24,508 bases of DNA from a virus, in IMG/VR virus record IMGVR_UViG_3300023297_000085, positions 1 through 24,508 of that record, one strand, 5' to 3'. The position numbers and the translations under genes were made by a program. This document shows positions 3,965 through 22,438 of the stretch, in pieces. Within the stretch, counting starts at the first letter, position 1; every line of letters begins with the position of its first letter. The notes beneath the pieces are model-generated. The model was not told the DNA's origin, did no database searches, and was given only the letters and a program-made list of their open reading frames with translations.

Positions 3965-3979
3965 AGGGAGCGATAATTG

Positions 3980-4672
3980 ATGGACAGTAGGATACTTGAC
4001 TTGACAGGACAAAGATTCGGGAAGTTAATTGTCGTTAATCTTACAGAAAAAAGAAATTCTTCCGGCAATGTTGTTTGGAGATGCCAGTGTGATTGTGGGA
4101 ATTTTGTCTATGTTGCTAGCAGCGACCTTATTAGGGGGCAAAAATCTTGCGGATGTGAAAAAGCTAGAGATATAACTGGAATCAGGTCTGGCAGGCTTGT
4201 TGCGGTTAAACCAACCGAAAGAAGAAATTCTTGTTCAGAGGTAATATGGTTAGCAAAGTGCGATTGCGGGAATTTTGTGTATGTTGCAGGAAGAGACTTA
4301 ACTAGAAAACACACGAAGTCTTGTGGCTGTCTTAGTAAAGATATTATGAGTGCTAAAAAAGGCCATCTTAACAATAACTGGAACCCTAAATTGACTGATG
4401 AAGAAAGAGTACATGGTCGTTGTGTTCCTGGCTACTCAAAATGGCGATTTGAAGTTTTTGAACGTGACGGCTTTACGTGCCAAAAATGCGGAGATAGCAC
4501 TGGCGGGAATCTTAACGCTCATCATATTGATAGTTATGCTGACAATCCAGAATCTCGCGTTGAGATTAGTAACGGGGTAACTCTTTGCGAGGAATGCCAC
4601 AAAGACTTCCATCATATTTACGGCAATCATTCAACAAGAGAAAAAGTAGAAGAATGGTTAGATTCAACGTAA
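3980..4672 (+). CDS. Free-standing HNH homing endonuclease with two N-terminal zinc modules
   Basis: The 230-residue protein has two similar N-terminal modules, residues about 7-60 and 65-118. Each has a (R)FGKL/SGRL beta start, a Trp, a CxCxC or CDCG cluster and a closing SCGC, as expected for small DNA-binding zinc modules. The C-terminal nuclease is a complete treble-clef HNH: C167 and C170, catalytic-type H181-H182, N198, then C203, C206, H207 and H211. This domain class cuts DNA site-specifically and, when free-standing in phages, promotes spread of its own gene. The ATG at 3980 is preferred, with GAGGGAG 9 bases upstream; a TTG at 3977 is also possible. A paralogue lies at 14570. It sits between genes, not inside one. 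Confidence 0.88.
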   Translation: MDSRILDLTGQRFGKLIVVNLTEKRNSSGNVVWRCQCDCGNFVYVASSDLIRGQKSCGCEKARDITGIRSGRLVAVKPTERRNSCSEVIWLAKCDCGNFVYVAGRDLTRKHTKSCGCLSKDIMSAKKGHLNNNWNPKLTDEERVHGRCVPGYSKWRFEVFERDGFTCQKCGDSTGGNLNAHHIDSYADNPESRVEISNGVTLCEECHKDFHHIYGNHSTREKVEEWLDST

Positions 4673-4723
4673 TTCGTGTCATTGTATTCACAAATAAGGA
4701 TTATATATAGAGAGGCAAATCTT

Positions 4724-4921
4724 ATGCAAATGGAAATGACTAAGAAGAATTCAGAAGGCGAAACTGTTGATAAGCGTGGAAAGCGCCGCACTGTTGTCGA
4801 TGGAGTTCTTAAGAATCAAGAGGTAAGTCTTAAAACTGGGGAGTGGGCGGACTTATCTACTATTAAAATAGAGGTTAAAGAAGCCGCAGATCTTGCGGCG
4901 AGTACTAAAGAAACAAGTTAA
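4724..4921 (+). CDS. Small charged hypothetical protein, 65 aa
   Basis: The ATG at 4724 has an AGAGAGG site about 8 bases upstream. A longer frame from a GTG at 4676 lacks a ribosome site and is not favoured. The product is rich in Lys, Glu and Thr (MTKKNSEGETVDKRGKRR) and has no Cys or membrane segment. It is followed after about 24 bp by the next structural gene. Small charged proteins of this kind are common between phage tail genes. No function can be assigned. The HNH gene probably entered just upstream, separating it from the 3656 gene. Confidence 0.6.
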   Translation: MQMEMTKKNSEGETVDKRGKRRTVVDGVLKNQEVSLKTGEWADLSTIKIEVKEAADLAASTKETS

Positions 4922-4945
4922 AGCTCGCTTGCTATGGAGGACAGA

Positions 4946-5413
4946 ATGAAAAAAAAGGACAACCTAGGCCTTCACGGAGAGTTTGAACTGGTTGCCGCAC
5001 ACTCAGATGGTGAGGTATTTGCTACTAGAGAAATACTAAACATCATCACAACGATGGGTCTTACAGAAGTCGCAAAAATGCTTATCGGAGCAGAGTCTGT
5101 TGGTTTTACTTTTGTTGCGATAGGTCTTGGAACTACGACACCTGTACTTGGCGACACAACGCTTGAGTCAGAGATTACCACGGCTGGCGGCGCACGCATT
5201 GATTCTACAAGCGAATCCACGGCTGCCGCAGTAGCGACTATCCCTGTGACGTTTAATTTCACGGCTGGTGCTTCATTCGCTATCACAGAAGTTGGACTGC
5301 TCAATGCGTCGTCAGCAGGAGACTTGTTGGCTCATCAGACCTTCGCAGCTATTAACGTAGCCGAAGGCGATAGTCTTACAGCAACGTGGACCATCACATC
5401 TGCCGGTGTGTAG
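4946..5413 (+). CDS. Phage tail-fibre-like structural protein, 155 aa
   Basis: Start at 4946 is chosen because a GGAGG lies 5-6 bases upstream; an ATG at 4934 lies at the 5' edge of that site. The N-terminus is charged, then comes a conserved phage pattern: FVAIGLGTTTPVLGDTTLESE, GGARID, a Thr/Ala-rich beta region, FAITEVGLLNASSAGDLLAHQTF and a final GDSLTATWTIT strand. This order (an AIGxGT motif, then an ITExGLxNA strand, then an LAxQTF and GDSLxxTWxIT end) recurs in small phage virion proteins annotated as tail or fibre components. A beta-sandwich fold is likely. It is the last gene before a strong terminator at 5439, so it probably closes the surface-protein unit. Confidence 0.7.
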   Translation: MKKKDNLGLHGEFELVAAHSDGEVFATREILNIITTMGLTEVAKMLIGAESVGFTFVAIGLGTTTPVLGDTTLESEITTAGGARIDSTSESTAAAVATIPVTFNFTAGASFAITEVGLLNASSAGDLLAHQTFAAINVAEGDSLTATWTITSAGV

Positions 5414-5438
5414 TGTAGCATAGCAAACGAAATACTAC

Positions 5439-5466
5439 GGCGGGGCTAACTACCCCGCCATTTTTT
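5439..5466 (+). terminator. Rho-independent terminator after the fibre-like block
   Basis: A perfect 7-bp GC stem, GGCGGGG (5439-5445) with CCCCGCC (5453-5459), closes a 7-base loop. It is followed at once by A and six T (5461-5466). It lies 26 bp after the stop at 5413 and just before the tmRNA promoter, separating two transcription units. Confidence 0.92.
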
Positions 5467-5472
5467 AACGAC

Positions 5473-5501
5473 TTGACGGATTGGGATTTTTGTGGTATGA
5501 T
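5473..5501 (+). promoter_or_regulatory. Consensus sigma70 promoter for the tmRNA unit
   Basis: TTGACG at 5473-5478 and TATGAT at 5496-5501 are separated by exactly 17 bp. A start near 5508 would lie a few bases before the mature tmRNA 5' end at 5513, leaving a short leader for RNase P to remove. The upstream CGACTTGACG and the T-rich spacer closely match the promoter at 14184. Confidence 0.88.
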
Positions 5502-5512
5502 GTAACAAACAT

Positions 5513-5837
5513 GTGGGTGACATGGTATCGATTGGTGCGAGAAATGTTCAGGTGCTAGGCAACATTAACAATAACCGAGAACAATCAAACAAACGTTATT
5601 TACGACGAGTATTTAACTGCTTTCTCTGCGGGGATAGTTACCTTCGAGAAAAGTATCGACTATAGCTATATCAACTAGCAAGCTTCGCAATAACCTAGCT
5701 GATTAACAACCGCGAATAGCAGGCGGCGAACTTTGCCAGTCCTAGTAACCGGCTGCGACTTAAAGACTGGAGATTCCTAGTGGCATCCTGCCAAAGAACG
5801 CAACAACACGCGGGTTCGAATCCCGCCACCTACACCA
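5513..5837 (+). ncRNA. ssrA: Phage-encoded transfer-messenger RNA (tmRNA)
   Basis: tmRNA rescues ribosomes stalled on broken mRNA: it is charged with alanine, then supplies a short reading frame ending in a stop. The 5' end GTGGGTG (5513-5519) pairs perfectly with CACCTAC (5827-5833), including the G3-U70 pair recognised by alanyl-tRNA synthetase. Discriminator A5834 and an encoded CCA (5835-5837) follow. The T-arm is perfect: GCGGG, loop TTCGAAT, CCCGC (5810-5826). The D-like loop follows the 5' strand, with TATCGATTGG in the usual GG-TTCGA region. Helix H2 is supported by TTGGTGCG (5532-5539) pairing with CGCAACAA (5799-5806), one mismatch. A hairpin with stem ATGTT/AACAT (5544-5548, 5561-5565) fits the pseudoknot-1 position. 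At 325 nt it is near bacterial size. The tag frame is unclear and is treated in the findings. Confidence 0.93.
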
Positions 5838-5839
5838 CA

Positions 5840-5912
5840 GGGCTATAGCATGGGCTACACGGCAACTCGCGAGAAAGGCTGTGTTGTCGTGGGTTCAATT
5901 CCCACTAGCCCG
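5840..5912 (+). other. tRNA-like element without a recognisable anticodon arm
   Basis: A perfect T-arm, GTGGG, TTCAATT, CCCAC (5889-5905), is followed by TAGCCC (5906-5911), which pairs with GGGCTA. Two GGGCTA copies exist upstream, at 5840-5845 and 5852-5857, so the acceptor stem can form in two ways. No 5-bp stem with a 7-base loop fits where an anticodon arm should be. The middle can instead form a long stem, either ACACGGC/GCTGTGT (5857-5863, 5878-5884) or CGGCAAC/GTTGTCG (5860-5866, 5883-5889). No CCA is encoded; TCA follows. It begins two bases after the tmRNA CCA, so both could share a transcript. It is either a decayed tRNA or a compact tRNA mimic. Confidence 0.55.
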
Positions 5913-5935
5913 TCAGAGAAGAAAAGGGAGACAAC

Positions 5936-6037
5936 ATGAACAAAAGAAACAGAGACGGTAAAGGCCCAGCAGGCAAAGGCCCGAAGACTGGAAGAGGCTT
6001 GGGTAATTGCCAGCCGACCACTACTCACAAGGTGTAA
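5936..6037 (+). CDS. 33-aa Gly/Lys/Pro-rich small protein (RDGKGP-TGRGLGNC motif)
   Basis: The ATG at 5936 follows an AAGGGAG site. The product is MNKRNRDGKGPAGKGPKTGR, then GLGNC and a short polar tail, ending TAA. The motif order D-G-x-G-P-x-G-x-G-P-x-T-G-R-G-x-G-x-C is shared with short DUF5320-like proteins of bacteria and phages whose function is unknown; this match is from memory. The protein is basic, with no membrane segment and one Cys. It lies inside the tmRNA unit, downstream of the tRNA-like element and before a series of hairpins. Confidence 0.72.
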   Translation: MNKRNRDGKGPAGKGPKTGRGLGNCQPTTTHKV

Positions 6038-6047
6038 ATAAGCTTTC

Positions 6048-6126
6048 AGGCTTATAGTCACGCATTATAAGCCTACAGCACTATAAAGATTTTAGCCCTC
6101 GGCTAAAAGGCCAGTGAAATTCTGGC
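6048..6126 (+). other. Three consecutive RNA hairpins
   Basis: Three hairpins lie between the 33-aa gene and the terminator-like hairpin. First, AGGCTTATA/TATAAGCCT (6048-6056, 6066-6074): 9 bp, 9-base loop. Second, TTTTAGCC/GGCTAAAA (6090-6097, 6101-6108): 8 bp, loop CTC. Third, GCCAG/CTGGC (6110-6114, 6122-6126). None carries a U-run. They could be a structured RNA domain, processing sites, or 3'-end protection for the upstream RNAs. Confidence 0.6.
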
Positions 6127-6141
6127 AACTTCCCTCCCCGC

Positions 6142-6178
6142 GAGAAAAAGGGCGGAGATGTTTTCTGCCCTTTTTCTC
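6142..6178 (+). terminator. Terminator-like long hairpin ending the tmRNA unit
   Basis: GAGAAAAAGGGC (6142-6153) pairs perfectly with GCCCTTTTTCTC (6167-6178). The stem extends inward through GGAGA/TTTCT with G-U pairs, leaving only a TGT loop. Read as an intrinsic terminator, the GC core GGGC...GCCC is followed by five T (6171-6175). The matching five A on the other side would allow action on the opposite strand too. The next gene starts 30 bp later, so it depends on read-through or an unseen promoter. Confidence 0.7.
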
Positions 6179-6207
6179 CAATATATCAAAACAGGAGATA
6201 TTAAATT

Positions 6208-6669
6208 ATGCAAAAGACAATTCCTTTCAAGGGTGATGGGAAATACTTCCTTACGCACTTCATTGATGCTGACCTAGATGCTGCGGAAGTTGCAGCTATC
6301 GTTATTACTACTCCGGACACAGCTGTGCGATGTCACGCTACCTTTTCGGTTAACGCTACTCTAGCTGTAAAGGTCCAGTTGTTTGAGAATCCTACATTGA
6401 CTGGCGTTGGCACAGCACTAGCAGAACTAAACACCGATAGGAATAGCGCAGCTGTTACGACTGTTGTCGCTACACACACGCCTACAATCGGTAGCAACGG
6501 TACTGCCTTGAGCGAAGGCTTCATCGGTCCATCGTCTGGTGTTGGAATGGCGACTGGCCCAATTGGTTCTGGAGAATTCGTTCTTAAACAAAATGAGCAA
6601 TATCTGTTACTTGTCACAAGTCAGACAGCTAACACGCAAGTTTCATTGTCTGCTGAGTGGTTCGAGTAA
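6208..6669 (+). CDS. Small beta-rich phage virion protein, 153 aa
   Basis: The ATG at 6208 follows an AGGAGA site about 10 bases upstream. The protein has a beta-sandwich-like pattern: TIPFKGDGKYFL, a central VKVQLFENPTLTGVGTALAE strand-turn-strand, NTDRNSAAVTTVVATHTP, a Gly/Ser loop and LKQNEQYLLLVTSQTAN ending in EWFE. The order (LxExPxxTxxGT, then NxxRNS, then LKxNxxYLLxVTS, then WxE) recurs in small phage structural proteins found near tail or head genes. The precise role is unknown. It is the first gene after the tmRNA unit and lies just upstream of the packaging genes. Confidence 0.68.
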   Translation: MQKTIPFKGDGKYFLTHFIDADLDAAEVAAIVITTPDTAVRCHATFSVNATLAVKVQLFENPTLTGVGTALAELNTDRNSAAVTTVVATHTPTIGSNGTALSEGFIGPSSGVGMATGPIGSGEFVLKQNEQYLLLVTSQTANTQVSLSAEWFE

Positions 6670-6670
6670 C

Positions 6671-6904
6671 ATGACGGGGAAGAGGAAGAAACCAAAGAAA
6701 CCGTTCATTAAGAAGAGATTTACTTGGAGAGATAGAACTTTTTTGGTAGTTCATTACATTAACAAGAAACAAACGGCACAGCAAATAGCTGACTTCGTTG
6801 GATGTTCTCAGAACACCATACTTAACTGGCTTCATAAATACAATCTACCGATACGAGAACAAGGCTGGGCAGGACATAATGAACCAAATCGAACAAGCAG
6901 CTAA
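6671..6904 (+). CDS. Small HTH DNA-binding protein, candidate terminase small subunit, 77 aa
   Basis: The ATG at 6671 begins one base after the previous stop; the in-frame extension upstream lies inside the 6208 gene and is not credible. Residues 1-20 are very basic (KRKKPKK, IKKR). Residues about 34-60, TAQQIADFVGCSQNTILNWLHKY, form a clear helix-turn-helix of the type that reads DNA. The gene overlaps the terminase large subunit start by 26 bp, a position where small terminase subunits usually lie. At 77 residues it lacks the oligomerisation core of typical small terminases, so it may be a minimal version or a regulator of the packaging operon. Confidence 0.7.
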   Translation: MTGKRKKPKKPFIKKRFTWRDRTFLVVHYINKKQTAQQIADFVGCSQNTILNWLHKYNLPIREQGWAGHNEPNRTSS

Positions 6905-8345
6905 GTTACTCCACCAGCTAGACCTACCTAACTATCCCGAAAGATTAGTAACGGACATCCTAGAAGAACAAGTATGGGACAAACAAGTTGAAATTCTTCA
7001 GTCAGCTTTCGAGTATGACGAAACTCTAGTTTACACAGGAAACGCAGTCGGAAAGACGTTCATTGGCGGAAGATTAATACTTGCTTTCTTGCTTGCACAC
7101 TCACCTCTGTATGGATATGCCGAAGGAAGCACTAAAGTGGTTGTAGTCGGGCCGAAGTTCGAGCAGATCCGCAAGCAAATTTGGGGTGAATTACAGGCGG
7201 CGTGGTATAAGTTAGGACAAAAGATACCTTTAGGCGAAGGAAAGTTACAAGCGCATGACCTTATCTTAGGCCCAGGTTGGTATGCCGGGATTTTTGCCGT
7301 TGATAAAGAGAATCCAGAGAAGATTCAGGGATACCACGCACCTAACTTCCTTGCGATTATCGAAGAAGCTACTGGAGTACCGGATGTAGTAAGAGAAGCA
7401 ATCCAAGGCTGTGCTACTTCAAGCAACTCGCACATTGTTGCATTCACAAACCCAATGAGACTGTCCGGATGGATGTATGAAGCCTGCACGGATGCTAAGA
7501 ATCTTGACCTTGAGTCTAAGAAGATCAGGAAGGTCATCCAGGTTTCATGCCTAGACACACCTAACTACTTGCTTAAGGAAGATATTCTTCCTGGCATCAT
7601 GTCCTACAAAGTGGTGAAAAATCGGCAAATTGAGTGGGGAGTAGAATCCCCAATGTATCAAGCTAGAATTGAAGGCCGGTGGCCTACAGCTTCTGACGAT
7701 GCACTTATCCCATATGAATGGGTCGAAGCAGCATGCACTGAAGACAGACTAGCCAAATGTATGAGAGATGAAGATAGGCGCGTATGCGCCATGGATATTG
7801 CAAGAGCGGGTGACGATCTAACAGTAATGATGCTGTTAGACGGTGACGTTGTTAGCAATATCAGAGCAGGAAGAACGCCAAACGTTATGAAAGCGGCTTT
7901 GATGTTTAAGGAAGCCTACTCAGATTGGGGTGGCTTTGCCGTAATAGATGAAAACGGACTAGGCGGCGGTCCATATGATAAACTTAAGTATGAGCTACAC
8001 GTACCTGTTCGTGGATGGATATCACAACGCAAACCAGATGAGAATGTAAAAGAAAGATTTACTAACCTCAAAGCACAGATCGGGTGGGAGTTAAGAGAAA
8101 GATTTAGAGAAGGAACTATCGCAATAGCCAAAGGGCCACATCGCGACCAGTTGAAGAATGACCTGATTGGATATCGCGTCGAACCAGACATGAAGGGCAA
8201 AACTAAGATCATCGATCCGGACAGGTCGCCAGATTTTGGAGACGCGCTAATCATGGCTCATTGGCTACAGAAAAGAGGCGCATCCAACGACGAAGTTGTC
8301 TCTGGAAAGAAGGCAATGTCTCATAGCATAAAAAGGGTATACTAA
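6879..8345 (+). CDS. terL: Terminase large subunit (ATPase-nuclease DNA packaging motor)
   Basis: The product is 488 residues from ATG 6879, which has GCAGGA upstream. The N-terminal ATPase shows Walker A GNAVGKT (residues 54-60), Walker B LAIIEE (158-163) and a coupling motif AFTNPM (188-193). The C-terminal RNase H-like nuclease shows three acidic positions: D306 in AMDIARAGDD, D357 in FAVIDENGLGGG and D455 in PDFGDALIMA. Together these translocate phage DNA into the prohead and cut it. The length is normal for the family. An upstream in-frame ATG at 6798 lies deep in the HTH gene and is rejected. The stop and the portal start share one base (TAATG), so translation is coupled. Confidence 0.95.
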   Translation: MNQIEQAAKLLHQLDLPNYPERLVTDILEEQVWDKQVEILQSAFEYDETLVYTGNAVGKTFIGGRLILAFLLAHSPLYGYAEGSTKVVVVGPKFEQIRKQIWGELQAAWYKLGQKIPLGEGKLQAHDLILGPGWYAGIFAVDKENPEKIQGYHAPNFLAIIEEATGVPDVVREAIQGCATSSNSHIVAFTNPMRLSGWMYEACTDAKNLDLESKKIRKVIQVSCLDTPNYLLKEDILPGIMSYKVVKNRQIEWGVESPMYQARIEGRWPTASDDALIPYEWVEAACTEDRLAKCMRDEDRRVCAMDIARAGDDLTVMMLLDGDVVSNIRAGRTPNVMKAALMFKEAYSDWGGFAVIDENGLGGGPYDKLKYELHVPVRGWISQRKPDENVKERFTNLKAQIGWELRERFREGTIAIAKGPHRDQLKNDLIGYRVEPDMKGKTKIIDPDRSPDFGDALIMAHWLQKRGASNDEVVSGKKAMSHSIKRVY

Positions 8346-14569: not shown

Positions 14570-15259
14570 ATGCATCCGAGCGCTAAAGATTATACAGGGT
14601 TTAAGTGCGGAAGATTGACCGCTATTAGGCCGACAGAAAAAAGGATGGGCCACAACATTGTTTGGGAATGCTCATGTGAGTGTGGCGGTGTCGCTTACGT
14701 AGATACAAGCAGTTTGAAAACTAAAACTATTATTTCTTGTGGATGTGCAAAGAAAAAAGATCTTTCTGGATTAAGATCTGGCAGGCTTGTAGCCATAGAG
14801 GCGACTGACAGAAGAAGCAGCAATGGATCTGTCATGTGGCGGTGTTTGTGCAGTTGCGGAAATATTTGTTATATTAGATCAGACGCGTTGATTAGTGCAT
14901 CCACAAAATCTTGCGGTTGTCTTCAAGTAGAGGCTGTCACAGGCAGGAAAGGGCCGCTTAGCCCTAGCTGGAAGTTTGATAAGACTGATGAGGAAAGGCT
15001 GAACGATAGGTCTTGCTCTGAATATTCAGAATGGCATAAAGCAGTATTCGAGCGCGATGATTATACATGTCAAAAATGTGGTGAAAGAGGCGGTAAGCTG
15101 CGCACGCATCACATTCTTGGTTACGCTGACAACAAAAACGAAAGAACATTACTCAGCAACGGAATAACGTTATGTAAAAAATGCCATAAGAACTATCACC
15201 ATGTGTATGGAAATATTGCTACTGAAGAAACCTTCAACGAATGGATGGAAAAGGAGTAA
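14570..15259 (+). CDS. Second free-standing HNH homing endonuclease, paralogue of 3980-4672
   Basis: The 229-residue product is colinear with the first HNH protein. There are two N-terminal zinc modules (Cys at 34, 36, 38 with SCGC at 56-59; Cys at 92, 94, 96 with SCGC at 114-117), a linker SPSWKFDKTDEERL, and a C-terminal HNH nuclease (C167, C170, H180-H181, N197, C202, C205, H206, H210). Segments such as FERDxxTCQKCG and TDEERL are nearly identical between the two. The start follows the 107-aa stop by 5 bp without a clear ribosome site, so translation may be coupled and weak. It probably homes into intergenic sites of related phages. Confidence 0.87.
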   Translation: MHPSAKDYTGFKCGRLTAIRPTEKRMGHNIVWECSCECGGVAYVDTSSLKTKTIISCGCAKKKDLSGLRSGRLVAIEATDRRSSNGSVMWRCLCSCGNICYIRSDALISASTKSCGCLQVEAVTGRKGPLSPSWKFDKTDEERLNDRSCSEYSEWHKAVFERDDYTCQKCGERGGKLRTHHILGYADNKNERTLLSNGITLCKKCHKNYHHVYGNIATEETFNEWMEKE

Positions 15260-18949: not shown

Positions 18950-21900
18950 ATGGCTCAGGAACTAACCCTTATTGTTCGCGCTGAAGATAGAGCGTCTCAA
19001 GTACTTAAAACTCTTCAAGTGAATGTAAAACAAACAGTTACCGTAACTAAGACAGCAACTGCAGCTAACAAAGCGGTCGGAAGATCTGCGCTTACAGCGA
19101 GCAAAGGCATTAACTCAATGGCAGCTAGTACCCGACGTATGATTACGGCGGTCGCTGGCGCTTCTGTCATGTACGCAATGGTTAGGGGAGTTCGTGCAGC
19201 GACTAAAGAATACGTAGAATACAACAAGCAACTCCATAACGTATGGACGTTGACTGATTACACAGGTGAGAAGCTAGGCCAACTAGGTACTAGAGTAAGA
19301 CACCTAGCAATGGATTTCAACGTTACTGCTTCAGAAAGCTTGAAGGCAATGTACCAGATTTATTCTGCTACATTCTACGGAGAATCTGCATTCTTGATTC
19401 TAGAAGAATCGCTTAAGGGTGCAGCCGCTGGACTTTCTGATGTTTTCACAGTAGCAGACATGATGACTACTGTTTTGAATGCTTACAATATGGAAGCATC
19501 CGAAGTGGCCCATATAAACGATGTACTATTCACAACAATCAAATATGGAAAAACGACGATGCACGAACTTGCAATGCAATTCGGGCGTCTTGCTGGTGTT
19601 GCAGCACCTATGGGTGCCGGGATAGAAGAATTATCAGCAGCAATAGCAACGCTTACGAAGCGTGGAATAACTACAGATTGGGCAATCACGGCTTTACGTC
19701 AGTCAATCATGCAAATCATGCGTCCTAGCACTAAATTAGAAGCAGTTATTAAAAAACTAGGATATACCACTGGAACACAGATGTTGAAAGCGCATGGTTT
19801 TGCAGAATCTCTAAACATGATCAATCAAGAAGCAAAAAAATCAGGGACTGGTTTGGAAGTATTGTTTGCTAATATACGTGCAGTTATGGCTGTGCTGCCT
19901 TTAGGAACAACAGCTGCAAAAGATTATGCAGAAAACTTGGAGAGATTTGCAGACGTTGAAGGCGCTGCTGCTGAGGCGTTTAGGAAACAGACTGAAGCTA
20001 TCTGGTTCCAGTTAGGCGTATTAAGCACAGGACTTAAAGATCTTGGCGCAATAGCTGCTGAAGTATTCATGCATGACATGGCTATCTATATCAAGGACAA
20101 CCTTGTGCCTATTGTGAAGACTCTCGCGTTCTACATAGCTATGAACAGAGAAGAGTTGAATTACTTCATAAAAGGTGCGGCGAAAGTTATTGGCGTAGTA
20201 ATGATGATCTACGGATTGTCCAAAGGTTTCTGGCTTCTAACCAAGCCGATTATCTGGTTGATTGCCGCAGCTGGACTGCTATATGCTGTGTGGGAAACAA
20301 ACCTATACGGTATCAGAGATATCGTAGACAGCGTCGGGGAATCATTAGATGCTGTAATAACCTGGGGTCTTGACATGGTCGGCTTAGGCGCAATGACTGA
20401 GTCTGTAAAAGGTTGGAGCAACGGACTCAAAGTTGCTATGCTTGCCGGTGCTGGATTAGGTCTTTCAAGGTTCTTGATAAGCGCTTTGTTCAAGGTAGGC
20501 AAAGGCGGTTTCTTCACAGGAGCTAGTGGATTAACAATGTTAAACATAGGCCTTGTCGCTGCGATGGCTTGGGACATAAAAAACAAGATTGGAAATATAG
20601 AAGAGCCTGGAGTCGCAGGAAGTTTGACTAGTGGGGTGTTCGGCGCTGTTCTTGGCGCTATATTAGGAGTGTCCGCTGCTGTAATCGCAGGGATGAGTGT
20701 AGGTTGGATCGTTCCTATTGCTGCTGCTGGATATGTATTAGGCTTAGGCGTTAAGATGTTTATGGATGTTGTATGGGATGTTGGCAATGGTCTTGGGGAT
20801 GTCGAAGGACTGCCGTCTATAGAGGCGTTAACAACTACAGAGGCTACTGTGCAGCGGATCTTGCGCGAGGGTCCAAAAATGTACAACAGCGGTGGAAGTG
20901 TCCCTGGATTCGGATCAGGCGACACAATACCAGCGATGCTTGAGCCTGGAGAATTCGTTATCCCTAAATGGATGATGGAAACAGGATTTGGCGATGAGAT
21001 AGCTAGAGTATGGTCTAATGGCAAAAAGATGGCGAGTGGTGGACCTGCTGGCTTTGCGGCTTCCGGCGGCGCTGGATCTTTCAACGCAGAAGGCGTCCAG
21101 AATCATCTAGACAAACTTATTAGCAAATTAGACACAACAACTCAGAATGTATTAGGCCCAATATCTAAATTCTTTTCAGCTAACGCACAAGACACAGGTG
21201 CGGTGTTAGAATTATTCACTAACCTTATCTCGTTGTTGTCTGCTTCTGAAGAGGCTAAGGTATACTTCGAAGATCTTATCAGAGATTTAGAGGAAATAGA
21301 TCTTGATCCATCTGTTATCACTTTCCAAGAGGCGATAGATAATTTCACAAGCACGATAAACGATCTTCTTAAAGGCGAACTTGTAACAGCGATAAGAGAT
21401 TTGCTCGGCAACATCTTTGGCATGAACGATGAAGCCGGAGAGGCTGCAAATTCATTCAACATACCTAAGCTGATGAAGCTTACACGCGCTGCTTGGGGTG
21501 CGGCTATTCCTGGACAATCATATGACGCAGGCGGCGGTGAAGAAGACACGACTGCTTGGGAGAGAATAGCCAATGGAATATTTGACGCAGTCGCGCTGTT
21601 GCTTGGAAACATTATCTGGTCTGAGGTAATAGCCAAAGTTATCTGGGCCGACTACATCAGTCCTTTACTTTCATGGATGTGGGAAACATTCATTGAAGGA
21701 CCAGCTATGTGGGTCTGGGAGAACATCCTTGAGGGACCGGCAAATTGGGTCTGGGAGAATGTTATCAAAGGCCCAGCTATGTGGGTTTGGGAAAATCTTA
21801 TCGTAGGACCGGCCATGTGGGTATGGGAAAACCTCATTGAAGGCCCGGCTATGTGGGTCTGGGAGAATGTCCTTGAAGGCCCTACACAATGGGTTTGGGA

Positions 21901-22438
21901 GAATATAATAGGTGCAGAAATACTAGACGGGATAACCGTTGGAGATGTTGCTTTATGGGCTACAGCTGTAACGCTTGGCGTAGATGCAGCAAGAGATTTT
22001 GGTTATTGGTTTGGGGAATTGATAGGCCTAAGTGAAGAGTCTACTGAATTTCTTGCCGATCTGTCCGGTATATTTGGAGGGGCATTACTTGGTGCCATGA
22101 TGGGATATTTTCTTGGCGGGAATGTCGGGGCATGGTTAGGGTTAGCCGCTGGCACAATTATTGGCGCTGTTGCGGCGCTTGAAGACGGAAGATCAGACCC
22201 GTCTGCTTATTCTTTGCCTGGGCAATTCCACTCTGTATTATCTACTGGGTCTGCTACGATACATAAAGGAGAGGTGGTTGGAACACCACCTATGACTGGT
22301 TATGGGAACACATATCAGTATTTCGTAACCCTTCCAAACGTAACAAACGCAGAAGAATTTGCTGAAGAAATGGAAAGAGTTACTCAGATGAAGAATCTAC
22401 ACGAGACTGGTAATAGATACGGTCCTTACGAGGCATAA
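18950..22438 (+). CDS. Tail tape measure protein, 1162 aa
   Basis: The ATG at 18950 has TAGGAGA upstream. The N-terminal part is the TP901-type tape measure domain: VRAEDRASQVLKTLQ, then LHNVWTLTDYTGEKLGQLG, RHLAMDFNVTASESLKAMYQ and MGAGIEELSAAIATLTKRGI. Hydrophobic stretches follow in the middle (VIGVVMMIYGLSKGFWLL, IIWLIAAAGLLYAVW), then a Gly-rich SGGSVPGFGSGDTIPAML motif and EPGEFVIPKWMM near 645-672, common in this family. Residues about 917-988 are six 12-residue Trp repeats. A Gly-zipper-like hydrophobic region (GALLGAMMGYFLGGNVGAWLG) comes next, and the C-terminus has a second ATIHKGEVVG motif. The protein sets tail length inside the tube and is injected with the DNA. Confidence 0.93.
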   Translation: MAQELTLIVRAEDRASQVLKTLQVNVKQTVTVTKTATAANKAVGRSALTASKGINSMAASTRRMITAVAGASVMYAMVRGVRAATKEYVEYNKQLHNVWTLTDYTGEKLGQLGTRVRHLAMDFNVTASESLKAMYQIYSATFYGESAFLILEESLKGAAAGLSDVFTVADMMTTVLNAYNMEASEVAHINDVLFTTIKYGKTTMHELAMQFGRLAGVAAPMGAGIEELSAAIATLTKRGITTDWAITALRQSIMQIMRPSTKLEAVIKKLGYTTGTQMLKAHGFAESLNMINQEAKKSGTGLEVLFANIRAVMAVLPLGTTAAKDYAENLERFADVEGAAAEAFRKQTEAIWFQLGVLSTGLKDLGAIAAEVFMHDMAIYIKDNLVPIVKTLAFYIAMNREELNYFIKGAAKVIGVVMMIYGLSKGFWLLTKPIIWLIAAAGLLYAVWETNLYGIRDIVDSVGESLDAVITWGLDMVGLGAMTESVKGWSNGLKVAMLAGAGLGLSRFLISALFKVGKGGFFTGASGLTMLNIGLVAAMAWDIKNKIGNIEEPGVAGSLTSGVFGAVLGAILGVSAAVIAGMSVGWIVPIAAAGYVLGLGVKMFMDVVWDVGNGLGDVEGLPSIEALTTTEATVQRILREGPKMYNSGGSVPGFGSGDTIPAMLEPGEFVIPKWMMETGFGDEIARVWSNGKKMASGGPAGFAASGGAGSFNAEGVQNHLDKLISKLDTTTQNVLGPISKFFSANAQDTGAVLELFTNLISLLSASEEAKVYFEDLIRDLEEIDLDPSVITFQEAIDNFTSTINDLLKGELVTAIRDLLGNIFGMNDEAGEAANSFNIPKLMKLTRAAWGAAIPGQSYDAGGGEEDTTAWERIANGIFDAVALLLGNIIWSEVIAKVIWADYISPLLSWMWETFIEGPAMWVWENILEGPANWVWENVIKGPAMWVWENLIVGPAMWVWENLIEGPAMWVWENVLEGPTQWVWENIIGAEILDGITVGDVALWATAVTLGVDAARDFGYWFGELIGLSEESTEFLADLSGIFGGALLGAMMGYFLGGNVGAWLGLAAGTIIGAVAALEDGRSDPSAYSLPGQFHSVLSTGSATIHKGEVVGTPPMTGYGNTYQYFVTLPNVTNAEEFAEEMERVTQMKNLHETGNRYGPYEA
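21662..21913 (+). repeat. 36-bp tandem repeats encoding GPAMWVWEN-type 12-residue units
   Basis: Six in-frame units begin at 21698, 21734, 21770, 21806, 21842 and 21878, each 36 bp. The first reads GPAMWVWENILE and all keep W-V-W-E-N. A degenerate seventh copy (PLLSWMWETFIE) precedes them at 21662. Third-position differences between units show they are not very recent copies and that the amino acid pattern is kept by selection. Confidence 0.93.

Follow-up and report, generated by a model that had tools for sequence, protein, structure and literature searches.

Genes for tmRNA are known from 402 of 18,146 phage genomes, with 133 unique structures (PMC9004378), and the view taken in the initial annotation of the present locus, that only a small number of phages carry one, is out of date in the light of that survey. 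Full tmRNA genes in tailed phages are described for mycobacteriophages Bxz1, Cali and Wildcat and for Bacillus phage G (PMC4131195), and phage Melnitz and some pelagimyophages are reported as aquatic phages with a tmRNA (PMC9004378). Mycobacteriophage DS6A bears a phage-borne tRNA-like domain (PMC4131195, PMC11915505). The gene analysed here, which can be likened to these systems by description, lies in the whole record of an uncultured bacterial virus, 24,508 bases in length and called the window in this text. The tmRNA of Melnitz and the pelagimyophages is described as a circularly permuted two-piece form (PMC9004378), whereas that of the window is in one piece and is missed by ARAGORN. DS6A is described as having little beyond the tRNA-like domain and no tag (PMC4131195, PMC11915505), whereas the tmRNA of the window has a tag and a fuller body. 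With E. coli ssrA, as with one-piece tmRNA generally, it shares G3.U70 and the order of acceptor stem, helix 2, resume codon, tag, helix 5, pseudoknots 2-4 and T arm. Compared to the canonical one-piece form, it is without pseudoknot 1, its stop codon lies in pseudoknot 3 instead of the helix-5 loop, and the end of its tag is polar. The resume codon is located at RNA position 65-70 in the phage sequences and at 88-97 in six controls, and the tag is 33-35 codons long compared to 9-13 codons in these controls. As predicted from sequence, the tmRNAs of this clade are a new structural variant without pseudoknot 1, with the frame running through pseudoknot 2 and the stop in pseudoknot 3; the other phage tmRNAs were compared by description.

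The Rfam model RF00023 matched the gene over model positions 1-374 at 54.6 bits, above the cut-off of 47 (E 4.3e-19 in a search of the window). The three further variants found in related viruses, L004, L007 and L008, scored 63.2, 74.7 and 63.0 bits, respectively. Chromosomal tmRNAs of the six control genomes reached 150-213 bits, and the top sub-threshold match in the same genomes, which is tRNA-sized, reached 43.5 bits. Because its score exceeds both the cut-off and this 43.5 bits and is far under the chromosomal range, the tmRNA of the window is considered to be real but atypical. Among the proteins of the window are TerL (Pfam Terminase_6N), a Mu-type portal, a head protease, a head scaffolding protein, a major head protein and a tape measure protein, and the tmRNA is upstream of TerL in all four variants. 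The earlier claim that a tmRNA gene lies complete among phage structural genes is thus confirmed by the covariance-model check that had been proposed, by the neighbouring head and TerL proteins and by the related loci. The proposed ARAGORN check had a different outcome, since no tmRNA gene was called in the window although the chromosomal tmRNAs were recovered in 6 of 6 control loci. Likewise, none was called in seven related loci, though six of them hold a tmRNA. Counts of tmRNA that rest on ARAGORN are therefore lower bounds, because the program misses this form. A permuted two-piece tmRNA was also considered and rejected: RF04321 gave only 19.4 bits at 5810-5899 (cut-off 47), and the acceptor strands sit at both ends of one gene, which rules out a circularly permuted gene. 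The features of the locus are listed in Table 1.

Table 1. Features of the tmRNA locus, with positions in the window
Feature	Position	Strand	Remarks
Rho-independent terminator-like hairpin	5439-5459	+	7 G-C pairs, then ATTTTTTAAC; between upstream gene and promoter
sigma70-type promoter match	5473-5501	+	TTGACG-17-TATGAT; TG before -10
tmRNA gene (ssrA), one-piece	5513-5837	+	RF00023 54.6 bits
Acceptor stem, 5' strand	5513-5519	+	7/7 pairs with 5827-5833; G3.U70 in 4/4 variants
Innermost helix 2 segment	5555-5559	+	CTAGG; pairs with 5776-5780
A-rich linker replacing pseudoknot 1	5560-5576	+	17 nt; ends UAACC, counterpart of E. coli UAGUC
Tag reading frame (predicted)	5577-5678	+	33 codons, ENNQTNVIYDEYLTAFSAGIVTFEKSIDYSYIN, then UAG
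Helix 5	5595-5617	+	Within tag frame; no in-frame stop codon
Pseudoknot 2	5618-5669	+	S1 5618-5622/5651-5655; S2 5634-5640/5663-5669; within tag frame
Pseudoknot 3	5670-5716	+	S1 5670-5678/5695-5703, UAG stop in 5' strand; S2 5684-5688/5712-5716
Pseudoknot 4	5719-5770	+	S1 5719-5726/5749-5756; S2 5736-5741/5765-5770
T arm	5810-5826	+	GCGGG-UUCGAAU-CCCGC; T stem 5/5
Encoded CCA end	5835-5837	+	Read from sequence

In the tRNA-like domain, all seven pairs of the acceptor stem are formed in each of the four variants, G3.U70 is invariant, and the acceptor pairs 2-71, 5-68, 6-67 and 7-66 each covary. The T stem is likewise complete (5/5) in all four, and CCA is encoded in three, with ACAG in L008. 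The initial annotation was therefore correct in reading acceptor ends with the G3-U70 alanine pair, a perfect T arm and an encoded CCA in the window. Its account of helix 2 was borne out in part: the helix is real, with its base and innermost part 100% paired across the four variants, but it is interrupted, and the 7 of 8 pairs given for it were not reproduced. The middle segments of this helix in the window overlap by at least one base and are alternatives, and the evidence is limited to the base and the innermost part.

The distance from helix 2 (CTAGG) to the resume codon is 17 nt in the window, 20 in L004 and 16 in both L007 and L008, and the Rfam alignments of the window, L004 and L007 have a deletion at one shared place. 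Pseudoknot 1 is judged absent because 16-20 nt leave no room for it. In a published alignment, the only tmRNAs named as lacking this pseudoknot are those of Oenococcus oeni and a partial plastid sequence, in which helix 4 is missing (PMC1168896). The tmRNAs of Oenococcus oeni and of the Pavlova lutheri plastid are thus like those of the phages in that pseudoknot 1 is not formed (PMC1168896); they are described as being without helix 4, whereas in the phage sequences the space is too short for helix 3 and helix 4. Nameki, in early work on E. coli recounted in PMC3968760, found pseudoknot 1 to be required for tagging. According to later accounts, it can be swapped in E. coli for a hairpin or single-stranded RNA with tagging kept (PMC3968760, PMC4236655), and its loss in the phages is therefore compatible with function. 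As some natural tmRNAs do not form it (PMC1168896), pseudoknot 1 is a usual but not a defining part of tmRNA.

In E. coli, the sequence UAGUC with U85 and A86 is described as the ruler of the reading frame, in which A86 precedes the resume codon by four nucleotides (PMC2481249), and AUAG and AUAA are given as preferred upstream of that codon (PMC4236655). The phage counterpart is UAACC or UAACU; U85 and A86 are kept, and the spacing from A86 to the resume codon is also four nucleotides. The resume codon is GAG in the window and L004 and GCA in L007 and L008. A glutamate resume codon is rare but on record in Mycoplasma pulmonis (PMC1168896). Under the E. coli resume rule, the predicted frame stays open over 33 codons in the window and L004, 35 in L007 and 34 in L008 up to the same UAG, and both alternative frames meet an earlier stop in every variant. 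When the letters are shuffled, such an open frame arises with a chance of 0.09-0.22 for each sequence. Two differences in tag length occur among the variants, of 6 and 3 nt, both in-frame. Additionally, the predicted frame has the top BLOSUM62 score of the three frames in 6 of 6 pairs, which are not independent of each other. The frame passes through helix 5, and its UAG is found in S1 of pseudoknot 3 in all four variants, so that pseudoknot 2 also lies within it. Stop codons in the published alignment are in the helix-5 loop (PMC1168896), and this usual trait of tmRNA is found in none of the four. Recoding of UAG was considered and rejected, as, among 47 ORFs of 140 aa or more that were called mechanically in a related record of 71.6 kb, 12 end in TAG.

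A single structure with pseudoknots was written on a MAFFT alignment of the four variants, and its pairs were then counted. Pairing was found in 93.3% of 268 cells, and two-sided changes with pairing kept were found in 25 of the 67 proposed pairs; neither value was reached by any of 500 shuffles. Of five covariation measures, one was less striking: further pair types came to 35, a count reached in 10 of 500 shuffles. When the 3' partners were slid by 1-3 columns, pairing fell to 29-43%, a comparison in which the structure, drawn from the window, is favoured over the slid versions, and the covariation has a base of four sequences only. All 7 pairs of pseudoknot 2 S2 are kept with three two-sided changes, and all 6 pairs of pseudoknot 4 S2 with four. 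In L004, pseudoknot 4 consists of unrelated letters in the same topology (S1 9/9, S2 7/7). Pairing is weaker in helix 5 (82% of cells), pseudoknot 3 S1 (89%) and pseudoknot 4 S1 (78%, with one pair never formed), and one pair of pseudoknot 2 S1 is at 50%. S2 of pseudoknot 3 is uninformative because it is invariant across the variants. For an inner part of pseudoknot 2 S1, 3-4 pairs are possible in every sequence, but it was left out of the count because its register is shifted. The initial annotation had named a fold lacking pseudoknots as an argument against the gene; pseudoknots 2, 3 and 4 are supported, and pseudoknot 1 is absent. The loss of pseudoknot 1, the tag frame and the position of the stop in pseudoknot 3 had escaped that annotation.

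A working tmRNA is likely because the tRNA-like domain, the frame and the promoter are conserved. The reading preferred here, to which a probability of about 0.7 is given, is that of a functional phage-borne tmRNA of trimmed architecture, which would recycle ribosomes rather than feed ClpXP. An improbable alternative is that the RNA would mainly titrate host SmpB or occupy stalled ribosomes, damping host trans-translation as a competitor, a role suggested for molecules like the DS6A tmRNA with its tRNA-like domain only. A molecule with only a tRNA-like domain, like that of DS6A, is reported to inhibit tmRNA strongly (PMC4131195, PMC11915505), and the phage body is far from that of cellular tmRNA (54.6-74.7 compared to 150-213 bits). 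Such a decoy needs no tag frame, yet 33-35 codons stay open in the phages, and pseudoknots 2-4 covary.

The predicted tags other than that of the window are ENNQTNVIYDEYLTAFSAGVVAFENSIDYNYVS (L004), ANTKEKTVAAFNSFVTIVFENVAAISYSADFSYVS (L007) and ANEKQSATYHEFVAAGFNDGVAAAVFSADYSYVS (L008). The C-terminus of the four tags is YIN or YVS, so that N or S is the last residue in each, without an ALAA-like end. The tags of the six control tmRNAs, as read by ARAGORN, are ANNELALAA, ANDNYALAA, AEDNFEADYALAA, AKPKLALAA, AKNNTQTYAMAA and GENNSYALAA; they have 9-13 residues and end in ALAA or AMAA. Tags are described as mostly having a hydrophobic C-terminal residue, and one bacterial species is said to have a charged end (PMC4131195); this usual hydrophobic end is absent from the phage tags. 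Since known tags have 8-35 residues (PMC3968760, PMC8012679), those of the phages, with 33-35, are at the top of the known length range. The tag peptide of the window matched none of 50,697 phage records and nothing in PDB, both at E 1. Of the 34 columns at each of the three codon positions, 20, 20 and 23 are variable, an even spread that argues against strong selection on the peptide, and selection at the level of the tag would be modest. Moreover, conservation of YVS and the stop may be structural, because this end also forms pseudoknot 3.

Ribosome recycling is considered more likely than the feeding of ClpXP because the predicted tag is without an ALAA-like end. The earlier suggestion that this RNA could direct tagged proteins differently gains support from the same feature and from the predicted tag length of 33 residues. 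In E. coli, resolving the stalled complex, and not degradation, is reported to ensure survival (PMC8012679), and a test phage in E. coli is reported to need ribosome release and not degradation (PMC2481249), so that a tag that is a poor degron would still serve. A host protease could recognise the phage tag. In a possible but doubtful alternative, the RNA would be simply host-like: its long tag would be a normal proteolysis signal, read by a Lon-like protease instead of ClpXP, and might match the tag of the host. Tags of similar length are within the published range of 8-35 residues (PMC3968760, PMC8012679), Lon and ClpAP are reported to act on tagged proteins as well (PMC8012679), and the phage tags are rich in hydrophobic and aromatic residues. 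Against this, the usual hydrophobic end (PMC4131195) is replaced by N or S in every variant, and all six control tags are short with ALAA or AMAA ends.

A TerL scan of IMG/VR gave a close set of seven loci. A scan with a TerL alignment gave 24 loci, comprising these seven and 17 remote loci with best segments of 22-30% identity. In the close set, a tmRNA with an RF00023 score above the cut-off is present in all six loci that span the place upstream of TerL; the seventh (L005) begins inside TerL, and its record has no tmRNA. Three of the six (L002, L003 and L006) are identical to the window across 851 bases. Four distinct sequences therefore make up the data, the window, L004, L007 and L008, with the window and L004 close to each other. 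TerL identity to the window is 96% for L004, 86% for L007 and 83% for L008 over 489 columns. RF00023 gave 0 of 17 matches at gathering score in the remote TerL relatives, which does not show that remote phages are without tmRNA because many of these loci are short. A portal-alignment scan added no new record, and no relative was detected when a genome collection of 84,980 species was scanned with the terminase. Within the collections searched, the tmRNA trait belongs to this small clade.

The tmRNA copy of L007 had no DNA match among 50,697 phage records at E 0.01, and L008 DNA had no match among plasmids. Positions 5300-6250 of the window matched 52 records of phage DNA, and in the best 20 of these the matched part is only 3-5% of the query and lies at its T-arm end. 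With the chromosomal tmRNAs L078 and L076 as queries, the phage set gave 1 and 2 partial matches, respectively. An exact-pattern search for tmRNAs without pseudoknot 1 gave 5 stretches in the viral collection, of which L007 and L011 (the contig of L008) belong to the clade, and L045-L047 are without an RF00023 match. The same pattern gave 25 stretches in the genome collection, none with a T arm (as a pattern) or an ARAGORN tmRNA, and the stretches outside the clade are taken as chance sites. With its flanks at canonical spacing, the pattern recovered 0 of 299 and 0 of 199 genomes, in listings that share most genomes; it is therefore without sensitivity and worthless as a survey.

The four variants would be mosaic. 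The 5' part of the L004 tag is the same as that of the window letter for letter, the acceptor and T arm of L004 are those of L007 in the alignment, and its pseudoknot 4 is unlike that of the other three. An HNH-type gene stands just after the tmRNA in L004 and L007, assigned by Pfam HNH for L007 and by its look for L004, and none was found at this place in the ORF lists of the window or L008. HNH homing nucleases could drive the exchange of modules among these tmRNAs. It is very improbable that the gene is a passenger, such as a decaying host gene or the remnant of an attachment site. Genomic islands are reported often to integrate into tmRNA genes (PMC11915505), and module swapping with HNH-type genes beside two of the four copies suggests traffic of mobile elements. 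In opposition to this, the gene is complete in all four variants, between which changes are compensatory and indels keep the frame, its place upstream of TerL is constant, and no integrase was found among the scanned window proteins, a subset of the ORFs.

Other elements were observed in the same viruses. Free-standing HNH-type genes are located at 3977-4672 and 14570-15259 of the window, 1359-1991 of L007 and 15723-16436 of L042; Pfam HNH was matched in the three scanned genes (two of the window, one of L007), and those of L042 and L004 look alike only. The portal gene of L008 (5570-8746) has an in-frame insertion that brings its product to 1058 aa (726 in the window); LAGLIDADG and Hom_end were matched, and by its look the insertion is an intein. 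The window also has a tandem repeat of 150 bases in 5.3 copies (1-785), within a repeat protein, and 36-base repeats (21690-21904) within the tape measure gene.

The sigma70-type promoter match is 10 of 12 letters in the window, 12 in L004 and 11 in both L007 and L008, with the -35 hexamer starting 40, 41, 40 and 76 nt upstream of the RNA in the window, L004, L007 and L008. Alone, the promoter is at chance level (2 sites in 4600-7000 compared to 3.6 expected from shuffles), yet a match of 10-12 of 12 is found upstream of all four variants, in agreement with the promoter of its own that had been ascribed to the gene. A promoter of this type weakly favours early or constitutive expression over purely late expression. 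The earlier proposals that the RNA could replace or compete with host ssrA, or rescue ribosomes on cleaved mRNAs late in infection, are conjectural. A record of 71,605 bases with an identical tmRNA region has 14 tRNA genes by ARAGORN (15 by Rfam) and encodes a peptide deformylase, a TROVE-domain protein, an anaerobic ribonucleotide reductase, a deoxynucleoside kinase and DnaB. No SmpB gene was found in any of seven records, all possibly fragments, and the phage tmRNA would on this ground depend on the host for SmpB.

Several further elements were observed around the gene. The TROVE/Ro60-type protein (Pfam TROVE; L042:13640-15016, minus strand, record G001) is in the same phage as the 14 tRNA genes and the tmRNA. 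A Ro protein is also encoded by some of the mycobacteriophages that have a tmRNA. Directly after the tmRNA of the window, at 5840-5911 (+), is a tRNA-like element with a 6-bp acceptor (GGGCTA/TAGCCC), a perfect T arm, and a 6-bp stem with a 14-nt loop; by eye it has no proper anticodon arm, and it ends in GTCA, without CCA. It is below all Rfam cut-offs (tRNA-Sec 18.2 bits at 5850-5913), was not called by ARAGORN and has a folding value of -31.7 kcal/mol, and a similar element was not seen by eye after the tmRNA of L004, L007 or L008. This element is a candidate Y-RNA partner of the TROVE protein. A leader-like structured element at 6090-6178 (+), before the next gene, has counterparts in L004, L007 and L008. 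It consists of a hairpin TTTTAGCC/GGCTAAAA, a second hairpin, an invariant UUCCCUCCCC and a long hairpin leading to a U-rich UCUGCCC; its helices were drawn by eye, RNAalifold on the MAFFT alignment gives them little support, and no Rfam family matched it at gathering score. Between these two elements, at 5936-6037 (+), is a 33-aa protein with a Pfam DUF5320 match (30.9 bits, cut-off 27), and a similar reading was seen by eye in L004.

Rescue of stalled ribosomes during infection, with host SmpB and EF-Tu, is most likely the role of the phage tmRNA. It would be transcribed from the sigma70-type promoter, trimmed by host RNase P and charged by host alanyl-tRNA synthetase. Host SmpB and EF-Tu would then deliver it to ribosomes stalled on broken mRNA. 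The ribosome would switch to the phage tag, unwinding helix 5 and pseudoknot 2 during reading, and would be released at the UAG in pseudoknot 3. The tmRNA may in this way be one part of a translation-support set, together with the 14 tRNA genes and the peptide deformylase. A more speculative extension, held only tentatively, is rescue without destruction: the tmRNA would free ribosomes, and the tag of 33-35 residues, selected as a peptide, would shield or redirect the tagged and largely viral proteins from host Clp proteases. The tag frame would have been extended across helix 5 and pseudoknot 2 to end within pseudoknot 3, with pseudoknot 1 being discarded.

Evidence that the maintenance of a tmRNA does not depend on pseudoknot 1, the need for which was argued from E. 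coli mutants, comes here from natural sequences. They also imply that ribosomes may have to pass through a pseudoknot of the tmRNA while reading it. The testable question that is opened is whether phages rescue ribosomes without feeding host proteolysis.
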